A DNA stretch of 64,000 nt from assembly GCF_010729485.1 (NCBI RefSeq), contig NZ_AP022609.1, positions 310,001 through 374,000 on the forward strand. Direction: 5' to 3'. The stretch comes from Mycolicibacter hiberniae. Lineage in GTDB: Bacteria > Actinomycetota > Actinomycetes > Mycobacteriales > Mycobacteriaceae. Numbering within the stretch: the stretch's first letter is position 1; every line of letters begins with the position of its first letter. A program made the position numbers and the translations under genes. The notes under the pieces were generated by a model. That model searched no databases. It worked only from the letters and a program-made list of their open reading frames with translations, and was not told the origin of the DNA. Positions 26,462-42,702 of this stretch are shown piece by piece.

Positions 26462-26488
26462 CCGACCACGGCGTCCGCGGTTCCGAAT
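26462..26488 (+). promoter_or_regulatory. SigK-like promoter, site 1 of 3
   Basis: CCGACC at 26462-26467 and CCGAAT at 26483-26488 with exactly 15 bases between them; an ATG follows exactly seven bases after CCGAAT, where transcription would start. The same spacing recurs at 28.65 and 39.4 kb. The CCGAAT element matches what I recall of the SigK -10 in M. tuberculosis, whose -35 has been given as CCATCC. It implies that the downstream SDR gene starts after this point. Confidence 0.65.
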
Positions 26489-26495
26489 CACAGTT

Positions 26496-26567
26496 ATGCG
26501 GCGTCATGCGAAAAGACAGGTTGCCTCGATTGCGCACACCAAGCGCGGCAGATTCGTGGTCGGGTGA
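26496..26567 (+). CDS. Predicted leaderless 23-residue leader peptide
   Basis: ATG at 26496 lies seven bases after the -10 of the SigK-like promoter, so it would be the first codon of a leaderless mRNA. The frame has 23 codons, encodes a very basic peptide (many Arg, Lys and His), and its TGA overlaps the GTG start of the SDR gene as GTGA, in a different frame. The arrangement suggests a translated leader that couples translation to the next gene. The peptide resembles nothing I know. Confidence 0.4.
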   Translation: MRRHAKRQVASIAHTKRGRFVVG

Positions 26568-28141
26568 GCCGCGTGACGGAGCCCGATCGCGGAGATCAGC
26601 CATTGAACGTATTGGTGACCGGGGCAACCGGCTACATCGGGGGCCGCCTGGCTCCCCGCCTGGTCGAAGCCGGCCACCGGGTACGCGTGTTGGCCCGTAA
26701 CCCCGACAAGATCAGCGATGTCCCGTGGGCGGCGGACGTCGACGTGGTTCGCGGCGACCTCACCGACCCGGACTCTCTGGACGAAGCGTGCCGCGACATC
26801 GACGTCGTCTACTACCTGGTGCACTCGATGGGAAACCCGGGGGAATTCATCGAGTCGGAGCGGCGGTGCGCGCAGAATCTCGCTGCCGCGGCCCAACGGG
26901 CCGGGGTGGGGCGCATCGTCTACCTCGGCGGCCTGCATGCGGAATCGGATCGTTTGTCCACGCATCTGCGATCACGCGGCCAGGTCGGAGAGATCTTGCT
27001 CAACTGCAATGTGCCGACCGTGGTACTGCAGGCCGGGGTGGTGATCGGTTCCGGCTCGGCGTCTTTCGAGATGATTCGGCACCTGACCAATCGGCTACCG
27101 GTGATGACCACGCCGCGCTGGGTCAACAACCGCATCCAGCCCATTGCGATCCGCGATGTCCTTTACTACCTGCTCGCCGCCGCGACCATGCCGCTGCCGC
27201 GTAGTCGCTCCTATGACATAGGTGGTCCCGATGTCTTGCGCTACGGCGAGATGATGCAGATCTATGCCGACGTGGCCGGGCTGACCCGACGCAGAATCCT
27301 CGTCCTACCGGTCCTCACGCCGAAACTGGCCGGGCTGTGGATCGGGCTGGTGACTCCTGTCCCGCCCCGGATCGGTCGCGCCCTGATCGAGTCCTTGAGC
27401 ACCGACGCAATCGCTTCCGAGCAGGACATCGATGCAGTGATTGCGCCGCCACCCGGCGGCAAGACCCGCTACCGAGACGCCGTTGCGCTCGCGCTACGCC
27501 GCATCGACAGCGGTGATGTGGAAACCACCTGGGCCGATGCTTCTGCCACCGGCGCCCCCGCTGACACGCTGCCTTCGGATCCCAGCTGGGCTGGGGAAGT
27601 GGTCTACACCGACGATCGCAGCGTCGACTGCGACGCCACTGTCGAGCAGGTGTGGCAGGTCGTCGAAGGTGTGGGTGGTGAGAACGGCTGGTACTCCTTC
27701 CCGCTCGCCTGGACGATCAGGGGCTGGCTGGACCGACTCACCGGGGGCGTCGGGTTGGCGCGGGGCCGCCGCAACCGACAGGTCCTGCACACGGGTGACG
27801 TCCTCGACTTCTGGCGAGTCGAACGCCTAGAGCGACCGCATCTGTTGCGGCTCCGCGCCGAGATGCGTACCCCGGGCGGTGCCTGGCTCGAATGGCGGCT
27901 TGAGTCGTGTGGCGCACACACCACCAGACTGCATCAGCGTGCGATCTTCTTCCCCAAAGGCCTTGCCGGACAGCTCTACTGGTATTCACTTATGCCGTTC
28001 CACGGCATCATATTCACCGGCATGGCCAACAACATCGCCGTCGCCGCGGGCCGCGTACCACGAAGTCCGGGCGCGGAGACGGATGGTTCAACGACCGCTG
28101 ATCGTCGGGTCGAAGGCTGCTCGCCGCAGGAGCGCTCATGA
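26564..28141 (+). CDS. SDR-family NAD(P)-binding protein with DUF2867 C-terminal domain
   Basis: A two-domain protein of 525 residues from the GTG at 26564. Near the N-terminus is NVLVTGATGYIGGRLAPRL (extended/atypical SDR nucleotide motif); residues about 340-510 form the DUF2867 domain (GENGWYSFPLAWTIRGWLDRL, then PFHGIIFTGMANNI). Homologues often lie next to DUF1365 and cyclopropane-synthase genes in light- or stress-controlled loci. The frame remains open upstream to an ATG at 26429 with AGGAG six bases before it, which would give 570 residues; I prefer 26564 because a SigK-like promoter lies inside that extension. Its stop overlaps the next start (ATGA). Confidence 0.8.
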   Translation: MSRVTEPDRGDQPLNVLVTGATGYIGGRLAPRLVEAGHRVRVLARNPDKISDVPWAADVDVVRGDLTDPDSLDEACRDIDVVYYLVHSMGNPGEFIESERRCAQNLAAAAQRAGVGRIVYLGGLHAESDRLSTHLRSRGQVGEILLNCNVPTVVLQAGVVIGSGSASFEMIRHLTNRLPVMTTPRWVNNRIQPIAIRDVLYYLLAAATMPLPRSRSYDIGGPDVLRYGEMMQIYADVAGLTRRRILVLPVLTPKLAGLWIGLVTPVPPRIGRALIESLSTDAIASEQDIDAVIAPPPGGKTRYRDAVALALRRIDSGDVETTWADASATGAPADTLPSDPSWAGEVVYTDDRSVDCDATVEQVWQVVEGVGGENGWYSFPLAWTIRGWLDRLTGGVGLARGRRNRQVLHTGDVLDFWRVERLERPHLLRLRAEMRTPGGAWLEWRLESCGAHTTRLHQRAIFFPKGLAGQLYWYSLMPFHGIIFTGMANNIAVAAGRVPRSPGAETDGSTTADRRVEGCSPQERS

Positions 28142-28584
28142 TCACCATGCAGCGGGAGGTGAGCAGTGACGTGGCGCCGGATGTGGCGTTTGCGTACCTG
28201 GCCGATTTCACCACCACCGAGCTGTGGGACCCGGGAACCATCACGACAGTGCGTGTTTCGGGTGACGGCGGGGTGGGAACCCGCTACCGGAACACGTCCC
28301 GGTTCGCCGGACGGGTGAGCACCGTCGATTATGTCGTCACGGCGCTGCGGCCGGGCCAGTCGATCGACCTGCGCGGGGAGAACGCCTCCGTCATCGTCTG
28401 CGACACCATCACCGTCAACGCGCGGCAGACCGGCTGCGTGATCACCTATCGGGTGACGTTCGCCTTTCAGGGGTGGTTGAAGTGGATCGAGCCAGTGCTG
28501 CGCCCAGCCGTCACCCGGTTGCTCGACGACGGGGTGCGCGGACTTCGAGGGGAGCTGCGGCGCATCGGCGAGCAGGGGATCTGA
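28138..28584 (+). CDS. SRPBCC-fold protein
   Basis: A 148-residue protein of the START/SRPBCC type (polyketide cyclase-like): MITMQREVSSDVAPDVAF then VAFAYLADFTTTELWDPG near residues 16-33 and a long C-terminal helix (residues 115-143). The fold forms a pocket for a hydrophobic ligand; no catalytic residues are evident. ATGA overlap with the SDR/DUF2867 gene marks them as one operon. Function unknown; a ligand-carrier role for the SDR product is a guess. Confidence 0.8.
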   Translation: MITMQREVSSDVAPDVAFAYLADFTTTELWDPGTITTVRVSGDGGVGTRYRNTSRFAGRVSTVDYVVTALRPGQSIDLRGENASVIVCDTITVNARQTGCVITYRVTFAFQGWLKWIEPVLRPAVTRLLDDGVRGLRGELRRIGEQGI

Positions 28585-28648
28585 CCGGCGCCGGTGATCG
28601 GTGGTCGCAATCGTTGAGGATGCTTTCGAAGTTGGGCGCCACTCGAAC

Positions 28649-28675
28649 CCGACCGTCGGCGGTGCGGCTCCGAAT
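28649..28675 (+). promoter_or_regulatory. SigK-like promoter, site 2 of 3
   Basis: CCGACC at 28649-28654, 15 bases, CCGAAT at 28670-28675 (continuing AACT), then seven bases and an ATG at 28683. Ten bases of the -10 region, and the GGCT before it, are identical to the site before the sigK operon. It lies in the 173-base gap before the halogenase-like gene and is the only promoter-like site seen ahead of the polyketide cluster. Confidence 0.7.
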
Positions 28676-28682
28676 AACTCCT

Positions 28683-28754
28683 ATGTATGCCCTACCGAAG
28701 ACTGTGGCGCCTGCCCCGGTCGACGAATCCCCTGCCCGGTGTGCGGGTAGGTGA
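28683..28754 (+). CDS. Predicted leaderless 23-residue leader peptide, same frame as the FAD gene
   Basis: ATG at 28683, seven bases after the SigK-like -10, opens a 23-codon frame that ends with TGA at 28752-28754. The following gene starts at GTG 28758 in the same frame, so just one stop and one GAC codon separate the two. The peptide is Pro/Ala-rich. It may be a translated leader, or the former N-terminus of the FAD protein cut off by a stop codon. Confidence 0.4.
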   Translation: MYALPKTVAPAPVDESPARCAGR

Positions 28755-28757
28755 GAC

Positions 28758-30524
28758 GTGGACGCCCGCGTGGAGGCCGCTGGCCTGAGTGAACAGACGC
28801 GAGAGGCTCTCGCCCGGCGCATCCGCGCCCGCCTCTCGGCCGCCGAGCACCAGAAGGCGGATCATGATGTGGCCATCGTCGGTGATGGAGTCTCCGCGCT
28901 TGCCCTGGCATTGGAGCTGCGCCGGGCTCGCCCGCAGACCCGGATCCTCGTCATCGGGCCGACCGACCACCCGGTTCCCGAGATCACTCACACGGTGGGC
29001 GAGTCCACCGTGGAGGTGTCGGCGCACTACCTGCGTCACCTCGGCTTGACCGAACACCTCACATCCCGGCAGATCCGCAAGATGGGTCTGCGCATGTTCT
29101 TCTCGAACGGCGGCAACACCGACATCACCAGGCGCCTGGAACTGGGCAGCTCCACCTACGCCCCGCAGGTGACCTACCAGATCGATCGCGGCAGGTTGGA
29201 GAACGAGCTCGCCCGCAGCGCCGCCGCCATGGGTGTTCGATTCGCCGGCGGACGGGTCCGCTCGGTGCAGATCACCGGTCCGGACGGCCTACACGTGGTC
29301 ACCATCCAGGACGCCGAGGCGATTACCCGGACAACGGCGCGCTGGGTGGTCGACGCCTCGGGCCGCAACCGGCTGTTGCCCCGACAGCTTGAACTGCAGC
29401 GGCCCAATGCACACCAGTGCAATGCCGCCTGGTTCCGTGTCGCGACGGAGATCGATGTGGGTCGCTGGAGCGATGACCCGGCCTGGCGCCAGCGACTGAG
29501 CGAGGGCGACCGCGCGATGTCCACCAATCACCTGATGGGCCCGGGCTACTGGGTCTGGCTCATCCGTCTCCCGTCGGGAGCCACCAGCGTCGGCATCGTG
29601 GCAGACCCCGACTTCGAGCCGTTCGACGGTTTCAACACCTTGGACAAGGCCAAGGCGTGGCTGCGCGCACATGAGCCGCAACTGGCCGAGGTGCTGGAAG
29701 AGCACACCGGCGCGATCATGGATTTTCGGGTCATGAAGAGGTACAGCCATGGCGCGAGCAAGGTGTTCGACGGCCGCGACCGCTGGTGCCTGACCGGGGA
29801 CGCCGGCATCTTCCTGGATCCGCTGTATTCGTCTGGACTGGACTTGGTCGCGATCGGCAACGGCCAGATCACGGACATGGTCACTCGCGATCTCGACGGC
29901 CAAGACGTGGTCGCGCGTGCACAGATCAGCGACGCGGTGTTCCGATCGCTCGGCGAAATGTGGCTGGTGGTGTACCAGGGGCAATACGCCTTGATGGGCA
30001 GGCCCGCCGTGATGTCGGCGAAGATCATCTGGGATATCGCGTTCTACTGGGGATTCATCGGCCTGCTTTACATCAACGGCCGCTTCGTCGGCATCGCCGA
30101 CGACCCGGAGTTCGTCCCGCACCTCAACGGCCTCATCGCGCTGAGCAATCGGGTCCAGAAGTTTCTTCAGGAGTGGGCGGAAATCGATGACGGCACCCCG
30201 TCAGTGCCCTTCGTCGACTTGTACGCTCCGCTGAATTTCATGGTTTCGCTGCACGTTTCGATGATGGAACCCAGCAGGAACTTCGCGGAGCAGTTCGACG
30301 CGAATGCCGCGTTGCTGCGCCGGCTGGCCGGACAGCTCGCCGAGACGGTGATCGCGGAGAAGTCGCTGGAGTTCGACGACGACAACGTCATGGCGACGGT
30401 GCAGAACTGGCAACAGGATCCGCTGCTCCGAGAGTTGCGCTCGGCCTACCGGCGCGGCCAGCGCGACGATCCGCTCAGTGAGGGCTGGATCGTCACCTCG
30501 TCACCGAAACTGCAACCGACCTAA
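28758..30524 (+). CDS. FAD-dependent oxidoreductase related to flavin-dependent halogenases
   Basis: A 588-residue flavoprotein. The dinucleotide motif reads VAIVGDGVSALALALEL (residues 38-54), with alanine where the last glycycine-type position of GxGxxG is usual. Next come GESTVEVSAHYLRHLGL (81-97) and K108 in RKMGLRMFF, the region where tryptophan halogenases carry their active lysine, and YWVWLIRLPSG near residue 258, a variant of their WxWxIP motif. GDAGIFLDPLYSSGLDL (about 350) is the C-terminal FAD motif. It is thus halogenase-like in form; whether it halogenates, epoxidises or oxidises is open. It directly precedes the polyketide synthase gene and probably modifies its product. GTG start at 28758. 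Confidence 0.8.
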   Translation: MDARVEAAGLSEQTREALARRIRARLSAAEHQKADHDVAIVGDGVSALALALELRRARPQTRILVIGPTDHPVPEITHTVGESTVEVSAHYLRHLGLTEHLTSRQIRKMGLRMFFSNGGNTDITRRLELGSSTYAPQVTYQIDRGRLENELARSAAAMGVRFAGGRVRSVQITGPDGLHVVTIQDAEAITRTTARWVVDASGRNRLLPRQLELQRPNAHQCNAAWFRVATEIDVGRWSDDPAWRQRLSEGDRAMSTNHLMGPGYWVWLIRLPSGATSVGIVADPDFEPFDGFNTLDKAKAWLRAHEPQLAEVLEEHTGAIMDFRVMKRYSHGASKVFDGRDRWCLTGDAGIFLDPLYSSGLDLVAIGNGQITDMVTRDLDGQDVVARAQISDAVFRSLGEMWLVVYQGQYALMGRPAVMSAKIIWDIAFYWGFIGLLYINGRFVGIADDPEFVPHLNGLIALSNRVQKFLQEWAEIDDGTPSVPFVDLYAPLNFMVSLHVSMMEPSRNFAEQFDANAALLRRLAGQLAETVIAEKSLEFDDDNVMATVQNWQQDPLLRELRSAYRRGQRDDPLSEGWIVTSSPKLQPT

Positions 30525-30583
30525 CGACCCCGGTGGTCGCGTTCGCCGCCGGCCCGCCGGCAGATGGGTACTCCAAGCACCTT

Positions 30584-33500
30584 ATGCGAGAACAGGAGAT
30601 GAAGTTGCCAGACGATGACGACCGCCGTGAACCGTTGGCCATCGTCGGGATCGGATGCCGGTTTCCCGGTGGTGCCGATTCCGCCGAACGCTTCTGGCAG
30701 CTGTTGCACAGTGCGACCGATGCGACCTGCGTAGTCCCCGAAACACGGTGGAACGCAGCCCGATACCACGATCCGAGCCCGGCCAAGGTCGGGAAGGTGG
30801 TCACGGCGCGAGGTGGCTTCCTGGGTGAGATCGATCAATTCGACGCACAGTTCTTCGGCATGTCGCCCCGCGAGGCGCACGCCCTGGACCCCCAACAACG
30901 TCTGCTGCTGCACGCCGCGTGGGAGTCGCTTGAGGACGCGGGAATACCGGCCGGTGACGTTGCCGGTGCCGATGTGGGCGTCTTCGTCGGCGGGTTCACG
31001 TTGGACTATCAGCTTCTCCAGAATCAGGGACATGCGAGTCGCTACCGGTTCAAGGCCCATTCGGCGACCGGGATGATGATGACGATGCTGGCCAACCGCA
31101 TCTCCTACGCATTGGACCTACGCGGGCCGAGCATGTCCATCGACACCGCATGCTCAAGCTCGCTGGTGGCGGTGCACTTGGCGGCGCAAAGCATTTGGAA
31201 CGGCGAATGCGAGCTGGCGCTGGCGGGCGGCGTCAATGTGATGATCGGCCCCAACACCGCCATTGCCGAATCCAAGAGTGGATTCCTGAGCCCGGAGGGG
31301 CGTTCCAAGGCCTTCGACGATGCCGCAGACGGCTATGCGCGCGGCGAGGGCGCCGCGATCGTCGTGATCAAACGGCTGAACAACGCACTGGCCGACGGCG
31401 ACGAGATCTATGCGCAGATCCTCGGTACCGCGGTGTCGCAGGACGGCCACACCGACGGCATCACCGTGCCCCGCGGCCAAGCCCAGGAATGCGCCATCCG
31501 GACGGCACTGGATCGAGCGGGCGTGCAGCCGGCCGACGTCGGCTACGTCGAAGCGCACGGCACCGGCACGCCCGTGGGCGACCCCATCGAATTGCAGGCT
31601 CTCGCAGCCGCATTGACCATCGAACGGCCTGCGACGGCCCCACTTCTGATCGGCTCGGTCAAGACCAACATCGGTCACCTGGAAGCGGGCGCCGGTGTCG
31701 CCGGCCTCATCAAAGCGGCCCTGGTGGTCAAGCATGGCTACATACCGGCCCATCTGCACCTGCGGACACCCACTCGGTACGTCTCGCTGACCGACCTGAA
31801 GATCGATATTCCGGCGACGGGCAGACCATTCCCGGAATGCGAACGGCGCATCGCCGGTGTCAACTCGTTCGGATTCGGGGGCACCAACGCCCATGTCGTA
31901 CTCGCCGAACCGCCGGTGGCGGACTCGGCCCCGCAGGTCGCCGAGCGTCCTGCGCTACCGCTGACCATCCTGCCGATATCGGCGCGTAGCGAGGACGCCC
32001 TGGTTGCCGCGGCCGGCCGACTGGCCGACCACGTCGACACCCATCCCGACATCGCGTTGCCGGACCTGGCCTACACCCTGAGCAGGCGGCGCACCCACCT
32101 GAACTATCGCCATACGCTGATCGCAGCAAGCGCCGCCGAAGCCCGCGCACAGCTCCGGAGCCTGGCCGAGGACAGCAAGGTCTCCACCGGCAGGGCCGTC
32201 CAGGACGTGCCCAAGCTGGCCTTCGTGTGCAGCGGCATGGGGCCCCAGTGGTGGGGGATGTGCCGCGAGCTGATGGACGTGTTCCCCGAGTTCACCGCCA
32301 GCCTCGAGCGCAGCGACCGCGAACTGTCTCGGTACGCGGACTGGTCCCTGATCGAGGAGCTTCGGCGCGACGAGGCCGACACCCGGATGACCGAAACCGA
32401 GTTCGCGCAACCGGCGAACTTCGCCATCCAGGTCGCACTCGCCGAGCAACTCGCCCAGTTCGGCATCAACCCGGACGCCGTGGTCGGCCACAGTGCCGGC
32501 GAGGTGGCCGCCCACCACCTCGCCGGCCTGCTCACCTTCGAGCAGGCCATCCACGTGATCTATCACCGCAGCCGGCTCCAGCAGCGGGCGAGCGGGTCGG
32601 GCAGCATGCTCGCCGTCGGTCTGGACGCGCAGACCCTGATGCGAACCCTCGATGAGGCGACCCGTGCGGCGCTGGCGGACCAGCGCGTCTCGGTGGCGGC
32701 GATCAACAGCCCGTTCGCGGTGACCCTCGCCGGCGACACCGAGGTTCTCGACGAGATCGCCCGGCAACTCAACGATGCCGCGGTCTTCAACCGTCGCCTC
32801 TCGGTGAAGGTGCCCTACCACTCCCACCACATGGACGCGGTGCGTGCCGAGCTGTTCAGCGCGTTTGAGGGGTTGTCGTCGAAGGCGGCGGTGCTGCCGT
32901 TGTACTCCACGGTCACCGGGGAGAAGCTGGACCGCTACCACGCCGGCGCCGCGTACTGGTGGCAGAACACCCGCGCCACGGTGCTTTTCGAACCGGCGAT
33001 CCGCCGGATGCTCGACGATGGATACACCCACTTCGTCGAACTGGCCCCGCATCCGGTGCTGGCCGGATCGATCTTCGAGACCGCCGGCAAGCAGAACATC
33101 TCGGTTACCGCGAGCCAGCGCCGCGGCCAGGATGCCGGGCGGGCACTGCTGGAATGCGTGGGCGCGCTGTTCTGCCGGGGCCACGACATCGCCTGGTCGG
33201 TACTGCACCCCGACAGCGCGCACCGACTGCTCAAGCTCCCTTCCTACCCCTGGCAGACCAAACGGTTCTGGACCGAAACCCAGGAGGCGACCGAGGCGCT
33301 GTTCTACCAACCGGTGCATCCCCTGTTGGGGCAGAAGGTGAGTGCTGTCCACCCGACGTGGGAAGCCGAGTTGAGCACCGTCCTCACACCGTTTCTCAAC
33401 GACCACCGGGTCCAAGGAAGCGTCGTCCTGCCCGGTTCGGCCTACGTCGAAATGGCTCACGCCGCCGCCGCCGAGACCTACGGCGCGACCTGCAGCGTGG

Positions 33501-36172
33501 ACAACCTGGTGTTCCATCGCGCGGTGATCCTCGACGAAACCTGCGATCCGATACTGAGAACCACGCTGAACGAGCAGGACGGCATGCTGGAGTTCGCCGC
33601 CTTCACCGCGACGGCCAACGGCGACACCAGCTGGGCCATCACCGCCACGGCCGAACTCAACGTTCGCCCCGTCTCGCCGCGACTGCGTGACCTCTCCGTA
33701 CAGCCCGACCCGCTCATCACGCTGGCCGATGAGGGCTTCTACGCCCGGACTCAGTCGATCGGCTTCACCTACGGCGATGCATTCCGATCCGTTCGGCGAG
33801 TGGCGGCCGGTGACGACTGGTCTGCCGCCGAACTGGTCATACCGCCGGCGATCGTCGACGACATCGACCAGTACCGGTTTCATCCGGCCCTGATCGACGG
33901 CGCCTTCCAGACCCTGTTCGGCGTCGCCGGCCTCGGCGAAAGGGCGGGCGACGACCCGTTCCTGCCCGCCCGAATCCGGCACTGCGCCATCTACGGCGCC
34001 CCCGCAGACGAGATGCGCGTGCACGCCCAGGTCGTCACGGCGACCAAAGACGAGGTCGAATGCGACATCACCGTCACCGATGACATCGGGACACCGCTGG
34101 CCGTTTTCAACGGCTTCACGGTGCAGTCGCTGGGCGTCGCAGCCCGCCTGTCGCTGGACCGCATCGACAGGGGACTGCTCGAACTGCACTGGCGCTTGGC
34201 CGACCACTCCCCGGACCGGCAGCCGGCCGAGCCGGCCGGCGAGTCGTCGTGGCTGGTGTTCACCGATGACTCGGGCGTGGGCGATGCCCTGACCGAGGAG
34301 CTGCGCCGCCGTGGTCACCGGGTCGCCACCGTCCGGCACCGGCGTGGCGGTGGGCTGCACGAAGCCGACGGCGGCTGCCAGATCGATCCCGGCTGCCCCG
34401 AACAGCTGGACCAGCTGTTCGCACAGCTCCACGGCGCCGCCGAACTCACCGGCATCGTCAGCTGCTGGCCCCTGGACATCGCTTCGGGTGCGGTCGAGCA
34501 GGACCGCTCGGGTGCGCCGGCGGACGACACGGATCTGCAGCTGGGCGTGCTGGCCGTCCTGCGCATCGTCAAAGCGCTCGCAGCACGGCCGACGACGGCA
34601 CGCCTGCACCTGGTCACCGGCAACTGTCAGCCGGTGGCCGGCAGCCGACTCACCGGATTCGCCCAGGCCCCCGTCTGGGGCCTGGGCCGCGTCATCGGGC
34701 ACCAGGAATTCGCCGAAAACTGGGGAGGTTTGATCGATATCGACGATGCCGATGACCCGGCTCAGACCGCTGTCCGCATCTGCGATCACCTGCTGGACGC
34801 CGATTCCGAAGACCAGATCGCGCTGCGCGGCGGAGCCGCTTTGGTCCCGCGCCTTCGTCCGTGCCACAGCCTGGCATCGCCGTTTCCCATCAAACTCAGC
34901 GCCGATGCGACGTACGTCGTCACCGGCGGCGTGGGTGCGCTCGGACGTCTGGTGGCCGGCTATCTCGCCGAGCGGGGAGCGCGGCATATCACGTTGCTGA
35001 GCAGAACTGAGCTACCGCCGCGGGAGGGCTGGGCCGCGTTGTCCGAATGCGACGCCCATTTCGCGACGGTCCGAGCGCTCGAGGCGATCGAAGAGCTCGG
35101 CGCAGAGATCGAGACCGCCAGCGTCGACATCACCGATTTTCAGCAGGTGGCCTCCTGGCGCGCCGATCACCTCGGCCGCGGCGGCCGCCCGATTCGCGGG
35201 CTGGTCCATGCGGCGGGCAGCGTCGACGATCACCTGCTGGTCAACATGTCCGAAGACGACTTCACCGCGGTGCTGGCCCCCAAGATCGTCGGCACCCAAG
35301 TGCTCCACGACGCGCTGCGCGACGACGCCCTGGAGTTCTTCGTGCTGTTCGGGTCCGCCGGCTCAGTCGTCGCGTCGCCGGGCCAGGGAAACTATGCGGC
35401 CGCCAATGCATTTCTCGACACCTTCGCACACTACCGGCGGGCGCAGGGCCTGCCGGCGTTGACCATCGGGTGGGGTCCGTGGTCGGTGGGCATGGTCGAG
35501 GAACTGAAGTTGGAGAACCTCTACGCGCAGCGGGGAATCGATCTGATCGCGCCCTCGGTAGGGTTACGGATTCTCGATCGGCTCATCAACCAGCAGATTC
35601 CCAGCGTCGTGGCGATGAGCGCGGATTGGAATCGCGCTCGCCGTGTCGGTTTCGCCGGACAACCGCCGCAGATGTTCGCCGATCTGGAGACCGTCGAAGG
35701 CCGTCGTGACGACGCCGAAGGGGCCTCCTCGATTCTGGCCGAGCTCGCCAACACCCCCGAAACCGAGCGTTTCGGCGTCATCGCCACCGCGGTTCGACAG
35801 CTGGTCGCCGATGTGTTCGACTGTGCGGTAACAGACTTCGAGACCAATGAAATGCTGGATGACATCGGCTTGGACTCCATGATGGCGATGGACTTCCGAG
35901 TACGCATCAACGAGGCGTTCTCCATTGATCTGCCGCTGCTGGAGATTATCCGCGGAGTCAGCGTCGACTCCCTTGCCGACCGGGTGCTCACGGAGCTGCA
36001 CACCATCCACGGTGATGTTCCCACCGGGACGCCCGAGCCGGAAACGGCCCAGATCCCCGTCGAGGACGTCGACAGCGTGGTCGATGACCTCTCGGAGGAC
36101 GAACTGCGAGAGTTGTTGGCCCAGCTCGATGCCCCGGCCGGCGGGCCGGACATGGACGGCGCACGGCGATGA
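30584..36172 (+). CDS. Type I polyketide synthase, single module KS-AT-DH-KR-ACP
   Basis: About 1,860 residues in one module. Ketosynthase (1-430): cysteine in DTACSSSL near 190, EAHGTGT near 325, TNIGHLE near 365. Acyltransferase (530-840): GHSAGE near 636 and VPYHSHHMD in place of HAFH; specificity unclear. Dehydratase (920-1190): HRVQGSVVLP (HxxxGxxxxP) and DGAFQ. Ketoreductase (1440-1640): GGVGALGR, VHAAGSVDD (B-type-like) and NYAAANAF. Carrier protein: serine in GLDSMMAMD near 1765. There is no enoylreductase and no thioesterase; the tail is acidic. This is the domain order of iterative synthases such as 6-methylsalicylate synthase, and also suits polyene formation. Start uncertain: ATG 30584, ATG 30599, or TTG 30605, the last having AGGAG six bases before it. 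Confidence 0.92.
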   Translation: MREQEMKLPDDDDRREPLAIVGIGCRFPGGADSAERFWQLLHSATDATCVVPETRWNAARYHDPSPAKVGKVVTARGGFLGEIDQFDAQFFGMSPREAHALDPQQRLLLHAAWESLEDAGIPAGDVAGADVGVFVGGFTLDYQLLQNQGHASRYRFKAHSATGMMMTMLANRISYALDLRGPSMSIDTACSSSLVAVHLAAQSIWNGECELALAGGVNVMIGPNTAIAESKSGFLSPEGRSKAFDDAADGYARGEGAAIVVIKRLNNALADGDEIYAQILGTAVSQDGHTDGITVPRGQAQECAIRTALDRAGVQPADVGYVEAHGTGTPVGDPIELQALAAALTIERPATAPLLIGSVKTNIGHLEAGAGVAGLIKAALVVKHGYIPAHLHLRTPTRYVSLTDLKIDIPATGRPFPECERRIAGVNSFGFGGTNAHVVLAEPPVADSAPQVAERPALPLTILPISARSEDALVAAAGRLADHVDTHPDIALPDLAYTLSRRRTHLNYRHTLIAASAAEARAQLRSLAEDSKVSTGRAVQDVPKLAFVCSGMGPQWWGMCRELMDVFPEFTASLERSDRELSRYADWSLIEELRRDEADTRMTETEFAQPANFAIQVALAEQLAQFGINPDAVVGHSAGEVAAHHLAGLLTFEQAIHVIYHRSRLQQRASGSGSMLAVGLDAQTLMRTLDEATRAALADQRVSVAAINSPFAVTLAGDTEVLDEIARQLNDAAVFNRRLSVKVPYHSHHMDAVRAELFSAFEGLSSKAAVLPLYSTVTGEKLDRYHAGAAYWWQNTRATVLFEPAIRRMLDDGYTHFVELAPHPVLAGSIFETAGKQNISVTASQRRGQDAGRALLECVGALFCRGHDIAWSVLHPDSAHRLLKLPSYPWQTKRFWTETQEATEALFYQPVHPLLGQKVSAVHPTWEAELSTVLTPFLNDHRVQGSVVLPGSAYVEMAHAAAAETYGATCSVDNLVFHRAVILDETCDPILRTTLNEQDGMLEFAAFTATANGDTSWAITATAELNVRPVSPRLRDLSVQPDPLITLADEGFYARTQSIGFTYGDAFRSVRRVAAGDDWSAAELVIPPAIVDDIDQYRFHPALIDGAFQTLFGVAGLGERAGDDPFLPARIRHCAIYGAPADEMRVHAQVVTATKDEVECDITVTDDIGTPLAVFNGFTVQSLGVAARLSLDRIDRGLLELHWRLADHSPDRQPAEPAGESSWLVFTDDSGVGDALTEELRRRGHRVATVRHRRGGGLHEADGGCQIDPGCPEQLDQLFAQLHGAAELTGIVSCWPLDIASGAVEQDRSGAPADDTDLQLGVLAVLRIVKALAARPTTARLHLVTGNCQPVAGSRLTGFAQAPVWGLGRVIGHQEFAENWGGLIDIDDADDPAQTAVRICDHLLDADSEDQIALRGGAALVPRLRPCHSLASPFPIKLSADATYVVTGGVGALGRLVAGYLAERGARHITLLSRTELPPREGWAALSECDAHFATVRALEAIEELGAEIETASVDITDFQQVASWRADHLGRGGRPIRGLVHAAGSVDDHLLVNMSEDDFTAVLAPKIVGTQVLHDALRDDALEFFVLFGSAGSVVASPGQGNYAAANAFLDTFAHYRRAQGLPALTIGWGPWSVGMVEELKLENLYAQRGIDLIAPSVGLRILDRLINQQIPSVVAMSADWNRARRVGFAGQPPQMFADLETVEGRRDDAEGASSILAELANTPETERFGVIATAVRQLVADVFDCAVTDFETNEMLDDIGLDSMMAMDFRVRINEAFSIDLPLLEIIRGVSVDSLADRVLTELHTIHGDVPTGTPEPETAQIPVEDVDSVVDDLSEDELRELLAQLDAPAGGPDMDGARR

Positions 36173-37017
36173 CCTCGGATCGGGCGTCAGCGGTGCAGGT
36201 ACGGGGCCTGTGCAAAAGCTACGGGCGCCTGCGCGCCGTGCACGACCTGGATCTCGACATCTATGCCGCCGAGATCTTCGCCATCCTCGGTCCCAACGGT
36301 GCCGGAAAATCGACGACCATCGAGATTCTGGAAGGCCACCGCAAACGCGACTCCGGGCGGGTCAGCGTCCTGGGGCAGGATCCAGGTTCCGCGGGACGCG
36401 GCTGGCGCGCCAGAATCGGGATCGTCCTTCAGGAAACCAGTGACTTCGGGATGCTGACGGTCCAGGAAACCGTAAACATGTTCGCGAAATGCTATGGCAC
36501 GGCGCGAACGTCGGGGGAACTGCTGGAACTGGTCGGGCTCGCCAGTACCTCCGGTTCGCGGGTCCGAACGCTGTCCGGCGGGCAGCGTCGCCGGCTGGAT
36601 GTGGCGCTGGGGATCATCGGCCGACCGGAGCTGCTCTTTCTGGACGAGCCGACCACGGGTTTCGACCCCGAAGCGCGACGACAGTTCTGGGATCTCATCA
36701 GGCTGTTGTCCTGCGACGGCACGACCATCGTGCTGACCACCCACTACCTGGAAGAAGCCGCCGCACTGGCGGACCGGGTGGCGGTCGTGGCGGGCGGACG
36801 TCTGGCGGCGCTGGATTCCCCGGCGCACCTGACCGCGCACGTGGCTTCGGCCGCGACGGTGCGCTGGATCCAAGACGATGTGCTTCACGAGCAGCAGACC
36901 GACCGGCCCACGGAACTGATCCGGCGCCTCTCCGCCGGAGGCGGCGAACTGGCTCAGCTGACCGTCACGCGGCCCACCCTCGAAGACGCCTACCTGGGCC
37001 TGATCGAAGGGAATTGA
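36169..37017 (+). CDS. ABC-2 exporter ATP-binding protein (DrrA type)
   Basis: A 282-residue ATPase: Walker A GPNGAGKST near residue 44, Q-loop VLQETSDFG, signature LSGGQRRRLDVAL, Walker B LLFLDEPTTGFD and H-loop TTHYLEEAA. The C-terminal extension after residue 220 is typical of DrrA-like subunits that export lipids or polyketides. ATG overlaps the stop of the polyketide synthase (ATGA), so the exporter is translationally coupled to it. It very likely powers export of the cluster's product with the next gene. Confidence 0.92.
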   Translation: MTSDRASAVQVRGLCKSYGRLRAVHDLDLDIYAAEIFAILGPNGAGKSTTIEILEGHRKRDSGRVSVLGQDPGSAGRGWRARIGIVLQETSDFGMLTVQETVNMFAKCYGTARTSGELLELVGLASTSGSRVRTLSGGQRRRLDVALGIIGRPELLFLDEPTTGFDPEARRQFWDLIRLLSCDGTTIVLTTHYLEEAAALADRVAVVAGGRLAALDSPAHLTAHVASAATVRWIQDDVLHEQQTDRPTELIRRLSAGGGELAQLTVTRPTLEDAYLGLIEGN

Positions 37018-37018
37018 C

Positions 37019-37873
37019 GTGACCGACCTTGTACAGGATGCGACTGGTGCACGCAGCGTCGGACGGCAGGCGGCAACCGAACTCCCGTCGGCCGTGCGGA
37101 TCGGCTTCTCGCGCGTCCTGCCCGAGCTGAAGATGTTCTACCGCCGCCCGGAACAGGTTGCGCTGACCTTCTCGATGCCGGCCGTGATATGCCTGCTGCT
37201 GGGATCGATCTTCACCTCCAAAGTGCCCGGCACCCAGACACCCACCGGAGCCGTGATCGCGGCGAGCATGCTTGCCTACGGAATCCTCTCGACGTCGTTC
37301 ACCAACCTCGGCATCAGCATCGCGGCCGACCGGGAAACCGGAGCGCTGCGTCGACTGCGCGGCACTCCGGCGACAGCGACGTCGTACTTCATCGGAAAGA
37401 TCATGCTGGTTGCCATCGCGAGCCTGGCCGAGGCTGCCCTGCTGTTGGTCTTGGGGGTACTGGTCTTCGACCTGCGCCTACCCACCAGTGCATCCGCATG
37501 GTTCACCTTGACGTGGGTGGCCGTCCTGGGAATCGTCAGCTGTTCGCTGCTGGGCATTCTGGTCAGCAACGTCGCCAGCAACGCGGTTTCGGCCGCCGTT
37601 CTCACCAACGGCCCCGCGGTCGGCCTGCAATTCCTCTCGGGCACCTATGTGCCACTGATGCTGATACCGACGTGGATGTTGGTCATCGGATCGCTCTTTC
37701 CCGTCAAGTGGATGGCTCAGGGATTTCGTTCGGTGTTCCTGCCGGCACAGATGGTGGTCTTCGAACCAGCCGGGGCCTGGGAGCTGGGGCGCATCTTTGT
37801 GGTCCTGGTGGCGTGGAGCGTGGCCGGTCTGGTGGCTTGCCTGCTGGTGTTCCGATGGTCGGATCGAGGTTGA
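37019..37873 (+). CDS. ABC-2 type permease (DrrB type)
   Basis: A 284-residue membrane protein with six predicted helices after a 40-residue cytoplasmic N-terminus, fitting the ABC-2 permease family. Typical segments are LPELKMFYRRPEQVALTFSMP before the first helix, DRETGALRRLRGTPAT between helices 2 and 3, and LSGTYVPLMLIPTWM near residue 215. GTG start at 37019, one base after the ATPase stop. It forms the channel for the ATPase encoded just upstream. Confidence 0.9.
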   Translation: MTDLVQDATGARSVGRQAATELPSAVRIGFSRVLPELKMFYRRPEQVALTFSMPAVICLLLGSIFTSKVPGTQTPTGAVIAASMLAYGILSTSFTNLGISIAADRETGALRRLRGTPATATSYFIGKIMLVAIASLAEAALLLVLGVLVFDLRLPTSASAWFTLTWVAVLGIVSCSLLGILVSNVASNAVSAAVLTNGPAVGLQFLSGTYVPLMLIPTWMLVIGSLFPVKWMAQGFRSVFLPAQMVVFEPAGAWELGRIFVVLVAWSVAGLVACLLVFRWSDRG

Positions 37874-37946
37874 CCGTGCTCGAACGCAGTGAACCGCCGG
37901 CAGTTCAGCCCGGCGAAGCGATGGCGTTGTCGCGAAGGGGGACACG

Positions 37947-39320
37947 ATGCCTTCCCTGTTGATGATCACCTATCACTTCTTCCTTCAGGTCGTGGTCATT
38001 CTGGCCACCTACCGCCTGCTGTGGCCGCTGTTCCGTCGGCTGGCTCAGGTGCAGGTGGTCGCGATGATGGTGGCGGGGTTCCTGCTGGGTCCCTCCGTTC
38101 TGGGATGGCTCTGGCCGGCCGGTCAGCGCTGGCTGTTCCCCACGAAGCTGACCCTGGGGTCGGAGACGTTCACCCACCCGAGCCTCACGGTCATCTACGT
38201 GGTCGGCCAGCTGGGCCTGGTGCTGTACATGTTCTTGGTCGGGGCATCGTTCAAGCTCGACATCCTGACCGCGCACTGGCGGCAAGCCGGCGTCACCTCG
38301 GCTGCGGGTATCGGCGTTCCCCTGGTGCTCGGCGGGGTCCTCGGAGCGTGGATGGTAAGTCGCGGAGGCTATTTCACCGACAACGTCGCATCATGGCAAG
38401 GCGGCCTGTTCGTTGCCGCCGCCGTCGCCATCACCGCCTTTCCGATGCTGGCGTGGATCGTCTACGACTCGGGACTGCTCAATACGCGGCTGGGAACGGT
38501 ATCGCTGTCCTGCGCCGCTTTCGATGACGCGTGTTCGTGGGTGTTGCTGGCGACGGTGGTCGCCACAGCCAAGGGAAGCCTGTTCGGTGCGGTTCTTGCC
38601 ATCGGCGGCGGGCTGGCGTACCTGCTGTTCATGGTCTATCTCGGCCGGCCGCTGCTGGCCCGATTGGAGACCTGGTCGCCGCCCCGCGCTGCGATCGAGC
38701 GAACGGGTGGACTGCCCATCGCCCACACCAGCGTTGTTCTGCTGGTCGTCCTGGCGGCGAGCTGCTTCACCGATTTCGTGGGAATCTATTCGGTGTTCGG
38801 CGCTTTCGTGGCCGGTGCCGTGATGCCGCGCGGTCCGTTGCTGACCCAGATCCGAGAGCACTTCGAGCCGTTGACGGCGTATCTGCTCATTCCGGCCTTC
38901 TTCATCTACTCCGGGCTGAACACGCAGCTCACCCTGATACTGGACGCGCCCACGCTGCTCATGGCGGCGGTCGTGCTGTTGGTGTCGTTCGGCGCGAAGT
39001 TCGGCGCGGTGGGTCTGGCAGCCCGGTGGCAGGGAATGAGCCGGCTCGAGGCCGCATCCATGGGGGCACTGGCCAATGCGCGCGGCCTGATGGAGCTCAT
39101 TCTGCTCAACATCGGATTCGAAGCGGGTCTCATCTCCGGGAAGCTGTACACGATCCTGGCCCTGATGACCATTGTCACGACCCTGGTCGCGACACCCCTG
39201 CAGCGGCAGTTCGAGCGCCGCCTGCGGAAAGCGGGATCGAAGTTCGGCGTGGACGGGGAGGAGCCCCTTGTCGCGGGTGGCGTCGAGGACGCACCGGCCG
39301 TTGCCGTGCCCGGCCGGTGA
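37947..39320 (+). CDS. Cation/proton antiporter, CPA2 family
   Basis: A 457-residue protein with about twelve membrane segments and the fold signatures of monovalent cation:proton antiporters (Na/H exchanger domain): MMVAGFLLGPSVLGWL near residue 40, GLVLYMFLVGASFKLDIL near residue 95 and CAAFDDACSWVLLA near residue 195, where the paired acidic residues expected for ion exchange appear (DD). A short soluble tail follows. ATG at 37947. It ends the polyketide operon; similar antiporters occur in natural-product clusters, where they are thought to help export or self-protection, but a purely physiological role is possible. Confidence 0.87.
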   Translation: MPSLLMITYHFFLQVVVILATYRLLWPLFRRLAQVQVVAMMVAGFLLGPSVLGWLWPAGQRWLFPTKLTLGSETFTHPSLTVIYVVGQLGLVLYMFLVGASFKLDILTAHWRQAGVTSAAGIGVPLVLGGVLGAWMVSRGGYFTDNVASWQGGLFVAAAVAITAFPMLAWIVYDSGLLNTRLGTVSLSCAAFDDACSWVLLATVVATAKGSLFGAVLAIGGGLAYLLFMVYLGRPLLARLETWSPPRAAIERTGGLPIAHTSVVLLVVLAASCFTDFVGIYSVFGAFVAGAVMPRGPLLTQIREHFEPLTAYLLIPAFFIYSGLNTQLTLILDAPTLLMAAVVLLVSFGAKFGAVGLAARWQGMSRLEAASMGALANARGLMELILLNIGFEAGLISGKLYTILALMTIVTTLVATPLQRQFERRLRKAGSKFGVDGEEPLVAGGVEDAPAVAVPGR

Positions 39321-39391
39321 TCGGTCACCCGGCGCGGCGGGCGCCTCCGGCGCATACGGCGGGCGTATTTGCGTCCCGCAGCCCGAAGAGT

Positions 39392-39418
39392 CCGACCACA
39401 GCCCCGTTGGCTCCGAAT
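39392..39418 (+). promoter_or_regulatory. SigK-like promoter, site 3 of 3, before the sigK operon
   Basis: CCGACC at 39392-39397, 15 bases, CCGAAT at 39413-39418 (continuing AACT), then seven bases to the ATG at 39426, which here is the start of the FAD protein itself. In M. tuberculosis the homologous locus contains sigK and is autoregulated, which supports reading this as a SigK promoter. It serves as the reference for the other two sites. Confidence 0.75.
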
Positions 39419-39425
39419 AACTTTC

Positions 39426-40730
39426 ATGTCAATATCACCGCAACGCAGGAGGTCCGTCGCTGTCATCGGCAGTGGAGTTGCCGGCTTAACGGCCGCCTAT
39501 GTGTTGTCCCGGCACTGCCGCGTCACTCTCTATGAGGCCGACACCCGGCTCGGCGGCCATGCCCACACCCACTTCGTCACCGCTGACGACGGCAGCGCCC
39601 TTGGCGTCGACTCGGCCTTCTTGGTTTACAACGATCGGACCTACCCGACGCTGTGCCGGCTGTTCGACGAGCTCGGGGTGCGCGGCACCGAGACCGACAT
39701 GTCGATGGCGGTGCGCAACGACGCGACAGGCCTGGAATACGCCGGAGCGCAGGGCGCCGCGGGCCTGTTCGCCTCACCGCGGACGCTGCGTCCCCGCCAC
39801 CTGCTGATGCTGGCCGAGATCCGGCGCTTCCACCGTGCGGCCACCGCCGTACTGCGGCAGTCGACGCCGGATGATCTGGAGCCCCTCGGCGCATTCTTGG
39901 CACGGCACGGCTTTTCCGGCTACTTCGTCGTCAACTTCATCACGCCGCTGGTGGCCGCGGTGTGGTCCTGCCCGGCCGATGATGCGCTGAGCTACCCCGC
40001 CCGCTACCTGTTCACCTTCCTGCAGCACCACGGGATGCTCTCGGTGTTCGGATCCCCGACGTGGCGCACCGTGACCGGTGGCTCGGCGAGCTACGTGAAC
40101 CGGATCGCTGCGCGGGTTGACGAGATCTGCACCGACAGTATCGTTTGGGCGCTGCGCCGGGTGTCGGACGGAGTGCTGCTGCACGCGCCCGGCGTGGGGC
40201 AGCGGCACTTCGACGCCGCGGTTGTCGCGGTGCACCCCGATCAGGCGTTGCGCCTGCTGCACAGCCCCACAGCCAAAGAGCGGGCCGTGCTCGGGGCCAT
40301 GCCCTATTCGGCCAACCATGCCCTACTGCACACCGACGAATCCGTGCTGCCCCGGCATGCCAGAGCCCGGGCGTCGTGGAACTACCGGATAACCGCGGAC
40401 CGCCGGGGTGTGCTGGTGACCTACGACGTCAGCCGGTTGATGCGCATCAAGTCCCGCCGGCGCTTCCTGGTCACGCTGGGTGGCGCAGATCTGGTCGATC
40501 CGCGATCGGTGCTTGCCGAGATGACCTACCAGCACCCGCTTTTCACCCCGGAGTCGGTCGCCGCCCAGCGCCGTCTGGCCGAACTCGGCGATCACCGCAT
40601 CGTGTTCGCCGGTGCCTACCACGGCTGGGGCTTTCATGAAGACGGCGCGGCGTCGGGCGTCCGCGCTGCGTGGCGACTCGGGGTCGACTGGGCGCCGGCC
40701 GCGACGTGCGATCGGGCGTGCGCATGCTGA
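39426..40730 (+). CDS. FAD-binding amine-oxidase-like protein (Rv0449c-like)
   Basis: A 434-residue flavoprotein with AVIGSGVAGLTAAYVLS at residues 12-28 and a second FAD segment EADTRLGGHAHTH near residue 40. The C-terminus has the usual FAD-closing pattern GAYHGWGFHEDGAASG near residue 400. It belongs to the amine-oxidase-like family that accompanies DUF1365 and cyclopropane-synthase-like proteins, and matches Rv0449c in length and place. ATG at 39426 lies seven bases after the promoter -10, so the mRNA is predicted to be leaderless; the frame is open further upstream but would run through the promoter. The reaction is unknown; lipid modification is likely. Confidence 0.88.
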   Translation: MSISPQRRRSVAVIGSGVAGLTAAYVLSRHCRVTLYEADTRLGGHAHTHFVTADDGSALGVDSAFLVYNDRTYPTLCRLFDELGVRGTETDMSMAVRNDATGLEYAGAQGAAGLFASPRTLRPRHLLMLAEIRRFHRAATAVLRQSTPDDLEPLGAFLARHGFSGYFVVNFITPLVAAVWSCPADDALSYPARYLFTFLQHHGMLSVFGSPTWRTVTGGSASYVNRIAARVDEICTDSIVWALRRVSDGVLLHAPGVGQRHFDAAVVAVHPDQALRLLHSPTAKERAVLGAMPYSANHALLHTDESVLPRHARARASWNYRITADRRGVLVTYDVSRLMRIKSRRRFLVTLGGADLVDPRSVLAEMTYQHPLFTPESVAAQRRLAELGDHRIVFAGAYHGWGFHEDGAASGVRAAWRLGVDWAPAATCDRACAC

Positions 40731-41422
40731 CCCCGGCGATCTATCGGACCGCGATCACCCACCGCAGACAGGTGCCGGTGGTCCACCAATTCGCCTATCG
40801 CGGATACAGCTGGTTCATCGACGTCGATGAACCGCCCCGCCTGCCCCGGTGGTTGAGCCCGTTCGCCAGATTCGACGCCGGGGATCACCTGCACGGGTCC
40901 ACTGGCGACTCGCTGCGGCAGCGCGTCGACCGATTCCTGGCCGAACGCGAAGCCGCCGTCCCCGCCGGACGCGTCTACGCACTGCTGCAGGCACGGGTCG
41001 GCGGTTATGCGTTCAATCCGATCAGCGTGTTCTGGTGCCACGACCGGCACGGAGAGCTGCGGCACGTGATCGCCGAGGTGCACAACACCTACGGGCAACG
41101 TCACGCCTATCTTCTGCCCCCCGCCGAGGCGCCGGTGCGGGTCGCCAAACAGTTCTATGTGTCGCCGTTCTTCACGGTCGCGGGTCACTATCTGGTGCGG
41201 GCTCCCCGCCCCGGGCGTGGCGTGGACATCAGTATCTCGCTGTACCAGGACGACAGGCCGGTGTTCGCCGCGACGATGCGCGGCGTCGGGCACCCGGCCA
41301 CCCCCGCTCGCGTCGCCCGCATGCAAGTCCTGGCGCCGCTGGCGCCGCTGGTGGTCGCGGCACGCATCCGTCTACAGGGCATCGCAATCTGGTTGCGCGG
41401 AGTTCCGGTGGTGAAACGATGA
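40724..41422 (+). CDS. DUF1365 protein (Rv0448c-like)
   Basis: A 232-residue protein of the DUF1365 family: YRTAITHRRQVPVVHQFAY at the N-terminus, NPISVFWCHDRHGELRHVIAEVHNTYG near residues 100-127 and KQFYVSPFF near residue 143. The ATG overlaps the preceding stop by seven bases (ATGCTGA). No reaction is known; it always travels with FAD and methyltransferase partners, as here, suggesting a three-protein lipid-modifying unit. Matches Rv0448c in the sigK locus. Confidence 0.88.
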   Translation: MLTPAIYRTAITHRRQVPVVHQFAYRGYSWFIDVDEPPRLPRWLSPFARFDAGDHLHGSTGDSLRQRVDRFLAEREAAVPAGRVYALLQARVGGYAFNPISVFWCHDRHGELRHVIAEVHNTYGQRHAYLLPPAEAPVRVAKQFYVSPFFTVAGHYLVRAPRPGRGVDISISLYQDDRPVFAATMRGVGHPATPARVARMQVLAPLAPLVVAARIRLQGIAIWLRGVPVVKR

Positions 41423-42702
41423 CTGCCCCAACGGGTTTGGTGCCAACCGTTGACGTGGACCCGGGCCGGTGGCCGCAGCTTGTGCACAGTCCGTCGGGGC
41501 CCGTGGCGGCCGCATCCGCGGTGGTGGTGCACGCCCTGCTGCGGCGCGCGGCGCGACGCCTGCCGGTGCGCCTGCAATACCCCGGGGGCAAGAGCTTCGG
41601 TGCCGCCGACCCCCGAACCCCGGCCCTGGTGATCGCCCAGCCGGACCGCATGGCGCGGCGCATCGGACGATCCGGGCTGATCGGATTCGGCGAGGCGTAT
41701 ATGGCCGGCGAGTGGCACTCCCCGGACCTCGTCGCGCTGCTCAGCGTCCTGGCCGGCGCGATGGATGAGCTGGTCCCGGCTTCGCTGCAGCGCCTGCGGC
41801 CGCTGGTGGTGGCCTCAGGACCGCGGTCGGCGAACACACCCGACCGTGCCCGCCACAACGCCTCGGCTCACTACGACCTGTCCAACGAACTGTTCGCGGT
41901 GTTTCTCGACGAGACGATGACCTACTCCAGTGCGCTGTTCGACCGGATTCCCAGTTCCCAGGCGGTACTCACCGGCGCCCAGCGCAACAAGATCGACCGG
42001 CTGCTGGACGCGGCCGCCGTCGGGCCCGGCAGCAGGGTTCTGGAGATCGGCACCGGCTGGGGCGAGTTGTGTCTGCGCGCGGCGGGCCGCGGGGCGCACG
42101 TTCGCTCCATCACGCTGTCCCGTAAACAACAGGAGCTGGCCAGGCAGCGGGCAGCCGTCGCCGGCGTCTCCGACCGGGTCGAGATCGAGTTGTGCGACTA
42201 CCGCGAGGTCGCGGGCAGCTACGACGCGGTGCTGTCGGTGGAGATGGTCGAGGCCGTCGGCTACCGGGCCTGGCCGGAGTACTTCCGCGCCCTGGACCGT
42301 TTGACCGCCCCGGGCGGCCGGGTGGCGATACAGGCGATCACCATGCCGCACGCCCGGATGATGGCCAGCCGGCACACGCTGACCTGGATTCAGAAGTACA
42401 TCTTCCCGGGAGGTCTGCTGCCGTCCACGCAGGCGATCTCCGGCGTCACCGGCTATCACACCGGACTGCGCACCGTCGACATGCGCGCATTGGGCCCCCA
42501 CTACGCCGAAACGCTGCGGCTGTGGCGGGAACGCTTCAACCACAGCGACTCCGCCGTGGCCGCGCTCGGCTTCGACGAGGTGTTTCGCCGGATGTGGGAT
42601 TTCTACCTGGCCTACTCGGAGGCGGGCTTCCGGTCGGGCTATCTGGATGTCTACCAATGGACGTTCGCCAAACCCGGCGAACCTCCCCCGGTGAGGGGGT
42701 AG
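41419..42702 (+). CDS. ufaA1: Cyclopropane-fatty-acid-synthase-like methyltransferase UfaA1
   Basis: A 427-residue S-adenosylmethionine methyltransferase. The SAM motif VLEIGTGWGELCLRA is near residue 210, preceded by the family's HYDLSNELFAVFLDETMTYSSALF near 155-178; IQAITMPHARM and QKYIFPGGLLPS follow near 310-335. It is the counterpart of M. tuberculosis UfaA1 (Rv0447c), reported to make tuberculostearic (10-methylstearic) acid. ATG overlaps the DUF1365 stop (ATGA). The gene that follows in M. tuberculosis, Rv0446c, is missing here. Confidence 0.9.
   Translation: MTAPTGLVPTVDVDPGRWPQLVHSPSGPVAAASAVVVHALLRRAARRLPVRLQYPGGKSFGAADPRTPALVIAQPDRMARRIGRSGLIGFGEAYMAGEWHSPDLVALLSVLAGAMDELVPASLQRLRPLVVASGPRSANTPDRARHNASAHYDLSNELFAVFLDETMTYSSALFDRIPSSQAVLTGAQRNKIDRLLDAAAVGPGSRVLEIGTGWGELCLRAAGRGAHVRSITLSRKQQELARQRAAVAGVSDRVEIELCDYREVAGSYDAVLSVEMVEAVGYRAWPEYFRALDRLTAPGGRVAIQAITMPHARMMASRHTLTWIQKYIFPGGLLPSTQAISGVTGYHTGLRTVDMRALGPHYAETLRLWRERFNHSDSAVAALGFDEVFRRMWDFYLAYSEAGFRSGYLDVYQWTFAKPGEPPPVRG

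Follow-up and report, generated by a model that had tools for sequence, protein, structure and literature searches.

We analysed a window of 64,000 nucleotides (nt) from Mycolicibacter hiberniae (contig NZ_AP022609.1, positions 310,001 to 374,000 of the forward strand; coordinates below are those of this whole stretch unless stated otherwise), in which three copies of one promoter-like motif, here named P1, P2 and P3, head three adjacent transcription units, the last of which carries the genes for the sigma factor SigK and its anti-sigma factor RskA. The features of the locus, with scores on the promoter profile described below, are as follows.

26462..26488, forward strand: P1, predicted SigK-type promoter (-35 at 26462-26467, -10 at 26483-26488, predicted start at about 26496, score 22.5)
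26496..26567, forward strand: 23-codon leader open reading frame (ORF) at P1, its stop 5 nt before GTG 26573, overlapping GTG 26564
26573..28141, forward strand: SDR (NAD(P)-binding)/DUF2867 protein (PF13460, PF11066), from GTG 26573, or GTG 26564, or the upstream ATG 26429
28138..28584, forward strand: SRPBCC/Polyketide_cyc2 protein (PF10604), second gene of the P1 unit
28649..28675, forward strand: P2, predicted SigK-type promoter (-35 at 28649-28654, -10 at 28670-28675, predicted start at about 28683, score 23.8)
28683..28754, forward strand: 23-codon leader ORF at P2, its TGA 3 nt before GTG 28758
28758..30524, forward strand: flavin-dependent halogenase-like protein, here Hal (PF04820, PF01494)
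30533..36172, forward strand: type I polyketide synthase (PKS) of 1879 aa, KS-AT-DH-KR-ACP by its domain matches
36169..37017, forward strand: ABC transporter ATPase (PF00005; the DrrA model is best, below its cut-off)
37019..37873, forward strand: ABC-2 permease (PF01061)
37947..39320, forward strand: Na+/H+ exchanger family protein (PF00999; match to the CPA2 model under the cut-off), with which the P2 unit ends
39392..39418, forward strand: P3, predicted SigK autoregulatory promoter (-35 at 39392-39397, -10 at 39413-39418, predicted leaderless start at 39426, score 23.8)
39426..40730, forward strand: flavin amine oxidoreductase (PF01593), which we take to be Rv0449c-like, with a predicted leaderless ATG; it opens the sigK operon
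40724..41422, forward strand: DUF1365 protein (PF07103, 216.1 bits, cut-off 25)
41419..42702, forward strand: cyclopropane-synthase-family methyltransferase (PF02353, 289.7 bits, cut-off 27), presumably UfaA1-like, start approximate
42788..43351, forward strand: sigK (NF007228; relative of 4nqw; sigma-70 regions 2 and 4)
43333..44043, forward strand: rskA, anti-sigma factor K (PF10099, PF22618 and NF052375, above their cut-offs)

The motif shared by the three sites is CCGACC-N15-CCGAAT. When both strands of the 64 kb were scanned, exactly three matches were obtained, all on the forward strand (26462, 28649 and 39392), against a chance expectation of 0.02 for the window, and a count of three was reached in 0/100 shuffles. 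The distance from CCGAAT to an ATG (26496, 28683 and 39426) is 7 nt in each case and the flanking bases are also alike, with GGCTCCGAATAACT common to P2 and P3, and GGTTCCGAATCACA carried by P1. An earlier note on this DNA had described the same arrangement at these three places and nowhere else in the window, together with extra bases common to the second and third sites, and both observations are confirmed. Genome-wide, the pattern has six exact matches in 4,396,654 bases, compared with none for the reversed pattern used as a control; three of the six are the window sites and the other three score lower on the profile (17.1, 14.5 and 12.4).

The sigma factor encoded in the P3 unit belongs to the SigK family according to the curated model NF007228 (279.7 bits, cut-off 226), and its relative of solved structure is M. 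tuberculosis SigK (4nqw, E 1.8e-79), with whose cysteines all three cysteines of the window protein align. The adjacent RskA is matched by PF10099 (77.4 bits, cut-off 29.4), PF22618 (63.8, cut-off 27) and NF052375 (147.5, cut-off 100). The Rv0449c-like gene at the head of the sigK operon has matches in 71 of 198 genomes of the genus, M. hiberniae included, and 30 operon-head loci were taken, one being our own and the rest drawn from the 70 other genomes with a match. A promoter of the P3 type is present at all 29 of the other heads fetched: the -10 reads CCGAAT in 26/29 and [A/G/T]CGAAT in 3/29, and the hexamer located 15 nt 5' of it reads CC[A/G][T/A]CC in 27/29, with TCGTCC or AGATCC in the remaining two. 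A profile was built from the 26 heads with CCGAAT, the window sites being left out of training, and its consensus, CCATCC-N15-CCGAAT with GGCT preceding the -10, agrees with the two hexamers that the earlier note had given for M. tuberculosis SigK promoters. P1, P2 and P3 score 22.5, 23.8 and 23.8 on this profile, inside the training range of 20.4-28.4, and the window's next best site reaches 11.8. P1 and P2 therefore resemble promoters of the SigK regulon in both sequence and spacing, and P3, at the head of the Rv0449c-DUF1365-UfaA1-sigK-rskA operon, is the promoter through which SigK is known to regulate itself. Because operon-head promoters across mycobacteria match, the SigK-type identity proposed in the earlier note, and with it the interpretation of the sites as a SigK regulon, is supported by more than self-regulation.

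The search of the genome was also widened to 21 matches of CCRNCC-N15-CCGAAT and 14 matches of CC-N14-TCCGAAT (both sets including P1-P3 and covering CCGAAT -10 boxes only), all of which, apart from P1-P3 themselves, were outscored by P1-P3. The fourth best candidate, and the sole additional one above 19, scores 19.4 at genome position 1001593; it lies antisense inside an ORF and was rejected as a further SigK target.

All three promoters recur at equivalent places in M. engbaekii (loci L201 and L263) and in another relative, designated G374. Between M. hiberniae and G374 the hexamers are identical in 36/36 bases and the spacers in 33/45, in a region that is ~83% identical, and the DNA aligned around the SDR/DUF2867 gene is 93-96% identical to that of M. 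engbaekii. The P1 hexamers are identical in L201, in G374 and in the genome UM_WGJ (locus L202), and P2 stands before the same gene in L201 and G374. In a further genome (G077), whose SigK is 87% identical, P3 is intact and P1, with ACGAAT as its -10 and a score of 19.0, lies 38 nt before the start codon of the SRPBCC gene, no match to the SDR gene or to Hal being found in that genome.

It is likely that P1-P3 are SigK promoters through which the three neighbouring units form a one-locus regulon. The promoters, their conservation, the gene identities and the leader ORFs are seen in the sequence itself; SigK binding, the transcription starts, coupled translation and the signal belong to a proposed mechanism, in which RskA would hold SigK until cleavage of RskA or reduction of a SigK disulfide freed it; freed SigK would bind CCGACC/CCGAAT and begin transcription with the A of the ATG located 7 nt downstream. 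A start at P3 would yield a leaderless mRNA for the first, Rv0449c-like enzyme, and starts at P1 and P2 would yield RNAs opening with a leaderless 23-codon ORF, with ribosomes re-initiating at a GTG a few bases past its stop. The P2 operon would have come to lie between the P1 and P3 units in this Mycolicibacter clade and thereby have been placed under SigK. As for the releasing step, in M. tuberculosis SigK a Cys133-Cys183 disulfide stabilises the complex with RskA and its reduction frees SigK, according to PMC7509140. Several observations weigh against this reading of the locus and are considered below, unit by unit, with the alternatives on which they bear.

For the P2 unit, the first gene product, Hal, matches PF04820 with 45.6 bits (cut-off 21), all of its NCBIfam hits being under their cut-offs, and its relatives in the PDB include 3nix, PltA (5dbj) and CmlS (3i3l). 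At residue 265 it reads WVWLI followed by R instead of P, the comparison being with WxWxIP, which we take to be the flavin-dependent halogenase motif. Orthologs of Hal (E <=1e-40) occur in 56/198 genomes of the genus, M. hiberniae included; the order Hal-PKS-ABC-ABC2 is kept in six other regions of 19-20 kb, and in three of these a closely related antiporter (80-84%) follows ABC2. No promoter of the P2 type was found within 200 nt of the 19 other Hal orthologs fetched (0/19; best 7.6), nor any site above 14 before Hal in the six regions, where a single site of 14.1 lies inside a PKS gene. The PKS operon thus appears to be widespread and its SigK promoter, as far as examined, lineage-specific; since the operon exists elsewhere without a SigK-type site, its capture next to sigK, which brought it under SigK control, is probable. 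The same absence favours a different explanation, namely that P2 acts only weakly as a SigK site or is the relic of one, and that the PKS operon is transcribed mainly from a promoter of its own or by transcripts running on from P1. We consider this unlikely, as both the hexamers and the position of P2 are identical in M. hiberniae, M. engbaekii and G374 and the leader ORFs are of equal length, with bases changed in the spacer and upstream but not in the hexamers.

For the P1 unit, the SDR/DUF2867 protein is 95% identical to that of M. engbaekii and 90% to that of M. sinensis, and homologs (E <=1e-60) are present in 160/198 genomes of the genus, M. hiberniae included. Upstream DNA was scored for 70 SDR-type genes (30 loci and 40 regions), and co-occurrence with SigK was counted leaving out our own genome together with G128 (score -1.7), whose SigK hit is weak; G156 was counted as SigK-positive despite a SigK hit weaker than most (E 6.6e-45). 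With phylogeny uncorrected in every comparison, a promoter score of at least 15 was reached by 24/53 SDR-type genes in genomes with SigK versus 0/15 in SigK-less genomes (Fisher p 6e-4) or, counted by genome, in 24/51 versus 0/14 (p 0.001), and by 0/70 of the reversed sequences used as a control. The count was also restricted to comparable genes by removing by hand, on the basis of protein identity and query range, ten paralogs of 43-48% identity (eight in genomes with SigK, the other two in genomes lacking it) and three matches covering the SDR part only, all from SigK-less genomes, which gives 24/45 versus 0/10 (p 0.003). A promoter of the P1 type also precedes 7/12 further SDR orthologs, the SigK status of whose genomes is not part of the count. 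Because the promoter co-occurs with SigK across the genus, P1 fits a wider pattern and the SDR/DUF2867 gene is supported as a predicted SigK target in many mycobacteria.

Among the opposing observations, scores under 15 were obtained for 29/53 of the SDR/DUF2867-type genes from genomes with SigK, and the result depends on the cut-off (26/53 versus 1/15 at 12, p 0.003; 13/53 versus 0/15 at 20, p 0.057). The statistic also ignores phylogeny, and several of the SigK-less genomes have similar upstream DNA and look closely related. UM_WGJ (G199), moreover, has no SigK (best hit 25% identity) and retains both P1 (22.5) and P2 (23.8). This genome lacks a whole block that begins shortly after P2, contains the PKS operon and sigK and reaches into rskA (L202 12037-12140 compared with window 28687-43381), so that P2 is joined directly to a truncated rskA; sigK may have been lost recently, or another sigma factor may read these promoters. 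The latter would agree with the view that another extracytoplasmic function (ECF) sigma factor of overlapping preference mainly reads P1 and P2, with SigK autoregulating P3 only, as would the -35 of many SDR/DUF2867 promoters elsewhere, which is CAATCC instead of CCATCC. We regard this as slightly less probable still than a relic P2, given that none of the SDR-type genes counted in SigK-less genomes, in either the full or the restricted count, has a promoter scoring at least 15, that in M. sinensis, which is SigK-less, P1 scores 14.9 with both hexamers intact and the bases before the -10 changed, and that P1, P2 and P3 have geometry, flanking bases and the CCGACC -35 in common. Control by SigK of the SDR/DUF2867-SRPBCC pair and of the polyketide operon, which the earlier note had put forward, is in our view supported as far as sequence goes, by the co-occurrence across the genus in the first case and, in the second, by the presence of P2 and the fact that two close relatives have kept it.

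Outside the mycobacteria, SDR/DUF2867 matches lie less than ~10 kb from sigK-operon genes in Rhodococcus tibetensis, R. rhodnii and a Corynebacterium (loci L208, L209, L223 and L230, which include Prescottella), the match in Prescottella subtropica being partial, with 85 residues; none was found near sigK-operon genes in the loci of Gordonia, Williamsia, Actinocatenispora and R. marinonascens. In two other mycobacteria, strong SigK-type sites occur on the opposite strand near an SDR/DUF2867 gene (L067 12120, reverse strand; L070 11293, reverse strand).

With regard to gene starts, the sites had been described in the earlier note as standing directly before operons, and it holds that each of them heads a unit; the ATG following the promoter, however, is the protein start at P3 only, its counterparts at the other two sites being the first codons of 23-codon ORFs. 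The proteins of these two units probably start downstream of the leader ORFs, at GTG 26573 (or 26564) and GTG 28758. By its geometry the P3 RNA would be leaderless, with ATG at its 5' end, and the arrangement at P1 and P2 suggests leaderless RNAs with coupled translation. A 23-codon leader is also found in G374 at both P1 and P2 and in M. engbaekii (L201) at P2, and the P1 leader of M. sinensis has 26 codons and ends in TGATG. In M. engbaekii (L201) and UM_WGJ (L202) the reading frame of the P1 ATG continues into the SDR gene, resulting in proteins of 525 and 532 residues, which favours true initiation at this codon there and coupled re-initiation in the others. A conserved leader peptide was considered and rejected, the codon changes between M. 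hiberniae and G374 (four synonymous and seven non-synonymous at P2, three and 11 at P1) showing no constraint at the protein level; this too counts against our reading, as does the SDR frame, which is open upstream to 26429 in M. hiberniae, G374 and M. sinensis, so that the gene may start 5' of P1. Descent of the P2 leader from a copy of the P1 leader was likewise rejected, their local alignment being no better than those of shuffled sequences: the fraction of 2000 shuffles scoring at least as high was 0.63 in M. hiberniae, 0.99 in G374 and 0.15 for the DNA upstream of the -35.

A further alternative, which we consider very improbable, places the P1 motif within the SDR gene, with translation from ATG 26429 (with GGAGG upstream) and with the motif kept for what it encodes; a CxxxxCxxC stretch, which a single frame offers at P1 as well as at P2, would then mark a small Cys-rich product. 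Reading from 26429 runs on into the SDR gene in M. hiberniae, G374 (TTG) and M. sinensis (TTG) but does not lead into it in M. engbaekii (GTG) or UM_WGJ (ACG, no start), and the cysteines are not retained there. The differences between M. hiberniae and G374 are even over codon positions (14/10/15) in every frame, with no sign of coding constraint, and 29 operons in other genomes are headed by this DNA motif.

What the SigK promoters proposed here would add can be seen against the SigK/RskA regulon of M. tuberculosis (the Rv0449c operon and mpt70/mpt83), for which PMC7509140 describes SigK autoregulation via the Rv0449c promoter and conservation of SigK binding sites in Actinobacteria, both points being therefore already published. 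The window has in common with that regulon the SigK and RskA families, the Rv0449c-like/DUF1365/UfaA1-like operon, the autoregulatory promoter at the operon head, a CCATCC-like -35, the CCGAAT -10 and the conserved cysteines. Unlike it, the window has CCGACC as the -35 at all three sites, and its predicted targets are the SDR/DUF2867-SRPBCC pair and the halogenase-like/PKS operon beside sigK; the fasciclin family PF02469 has 0 matches in the whole M. hiberniae genome, and no counterpart of mpt70/mpt83 was found there. Compared with the mpt83-sigK-rskA cassette, as treated in PMC7509140, conserved SigK sites linked to sigK are seen in both, the units linked here being SDR/DUF2867 and PKS and not mpt83.

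The leaderless mycobacterial transcripts and small proteins described in PMC4633059 are likewise comparable, with ATG at the RNA 5' end (here predicted) and small leader ORFs, and differ in that the predicted leader ORFs of the window go with SigK-type promoters and stop 3-5 nt short of the likely gene start. A likeness by domain exists to the furan-fatty-acid gene ufaO: UfaO carries DUF1365, and so does the product of the gene that comes second in the sigK operon. According to PMC7380195, the furan fatty acid gives protection from singlet oxygen. No earlier report of SDR/DUF2867 or PKS targets of SigK was found in the literature searched, though a mention in the 2008 paper on the SigK regulon is possible.

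A compact small regulon with a metabolite operon apparently under SigK could serve as a direct readout of SigK outside the M. tuberculosis complex; it would make SDR/DUF2867 a candidate SigK target genus-wide and illustrate how a location beside a sigma factor's own promoter may rewire a biosynthetic cluster. Tentatively, and with much less confidence than we place in the one-locus regulon, SigK in this clade might be viewed as a closed single-locus switch, with no fasciclin targets, with all strong sites found in the genome lying within a 13-kb stretch beside sigK, and with a whole biosynthetic operon annexed through its arrival beside a SigK promoter, in which an RskA-gated signal would directly switch on both a polyketide-and-export system, its polyketide possibly halogenated, and lipid-modifying genes (UfaA1-like, DUF1365) via leaderless RNAs with coupled leader ORFs.

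Two minor observations concern the organisation of the sigK operon. The gap between the UfaA1-like gene and sigK is 85 nt (42703-42787) in M. hiberniae, and in another genome (G104, locus L198) ~840 nt separate the two matches, leaving room for an extra gene. In other mycobacteria, SigK-type sites scoring 24-28 are found directly 3' of rskA (L196 7322, forward strand; L197 1065, reverse strand; L192 7029, forward strand).

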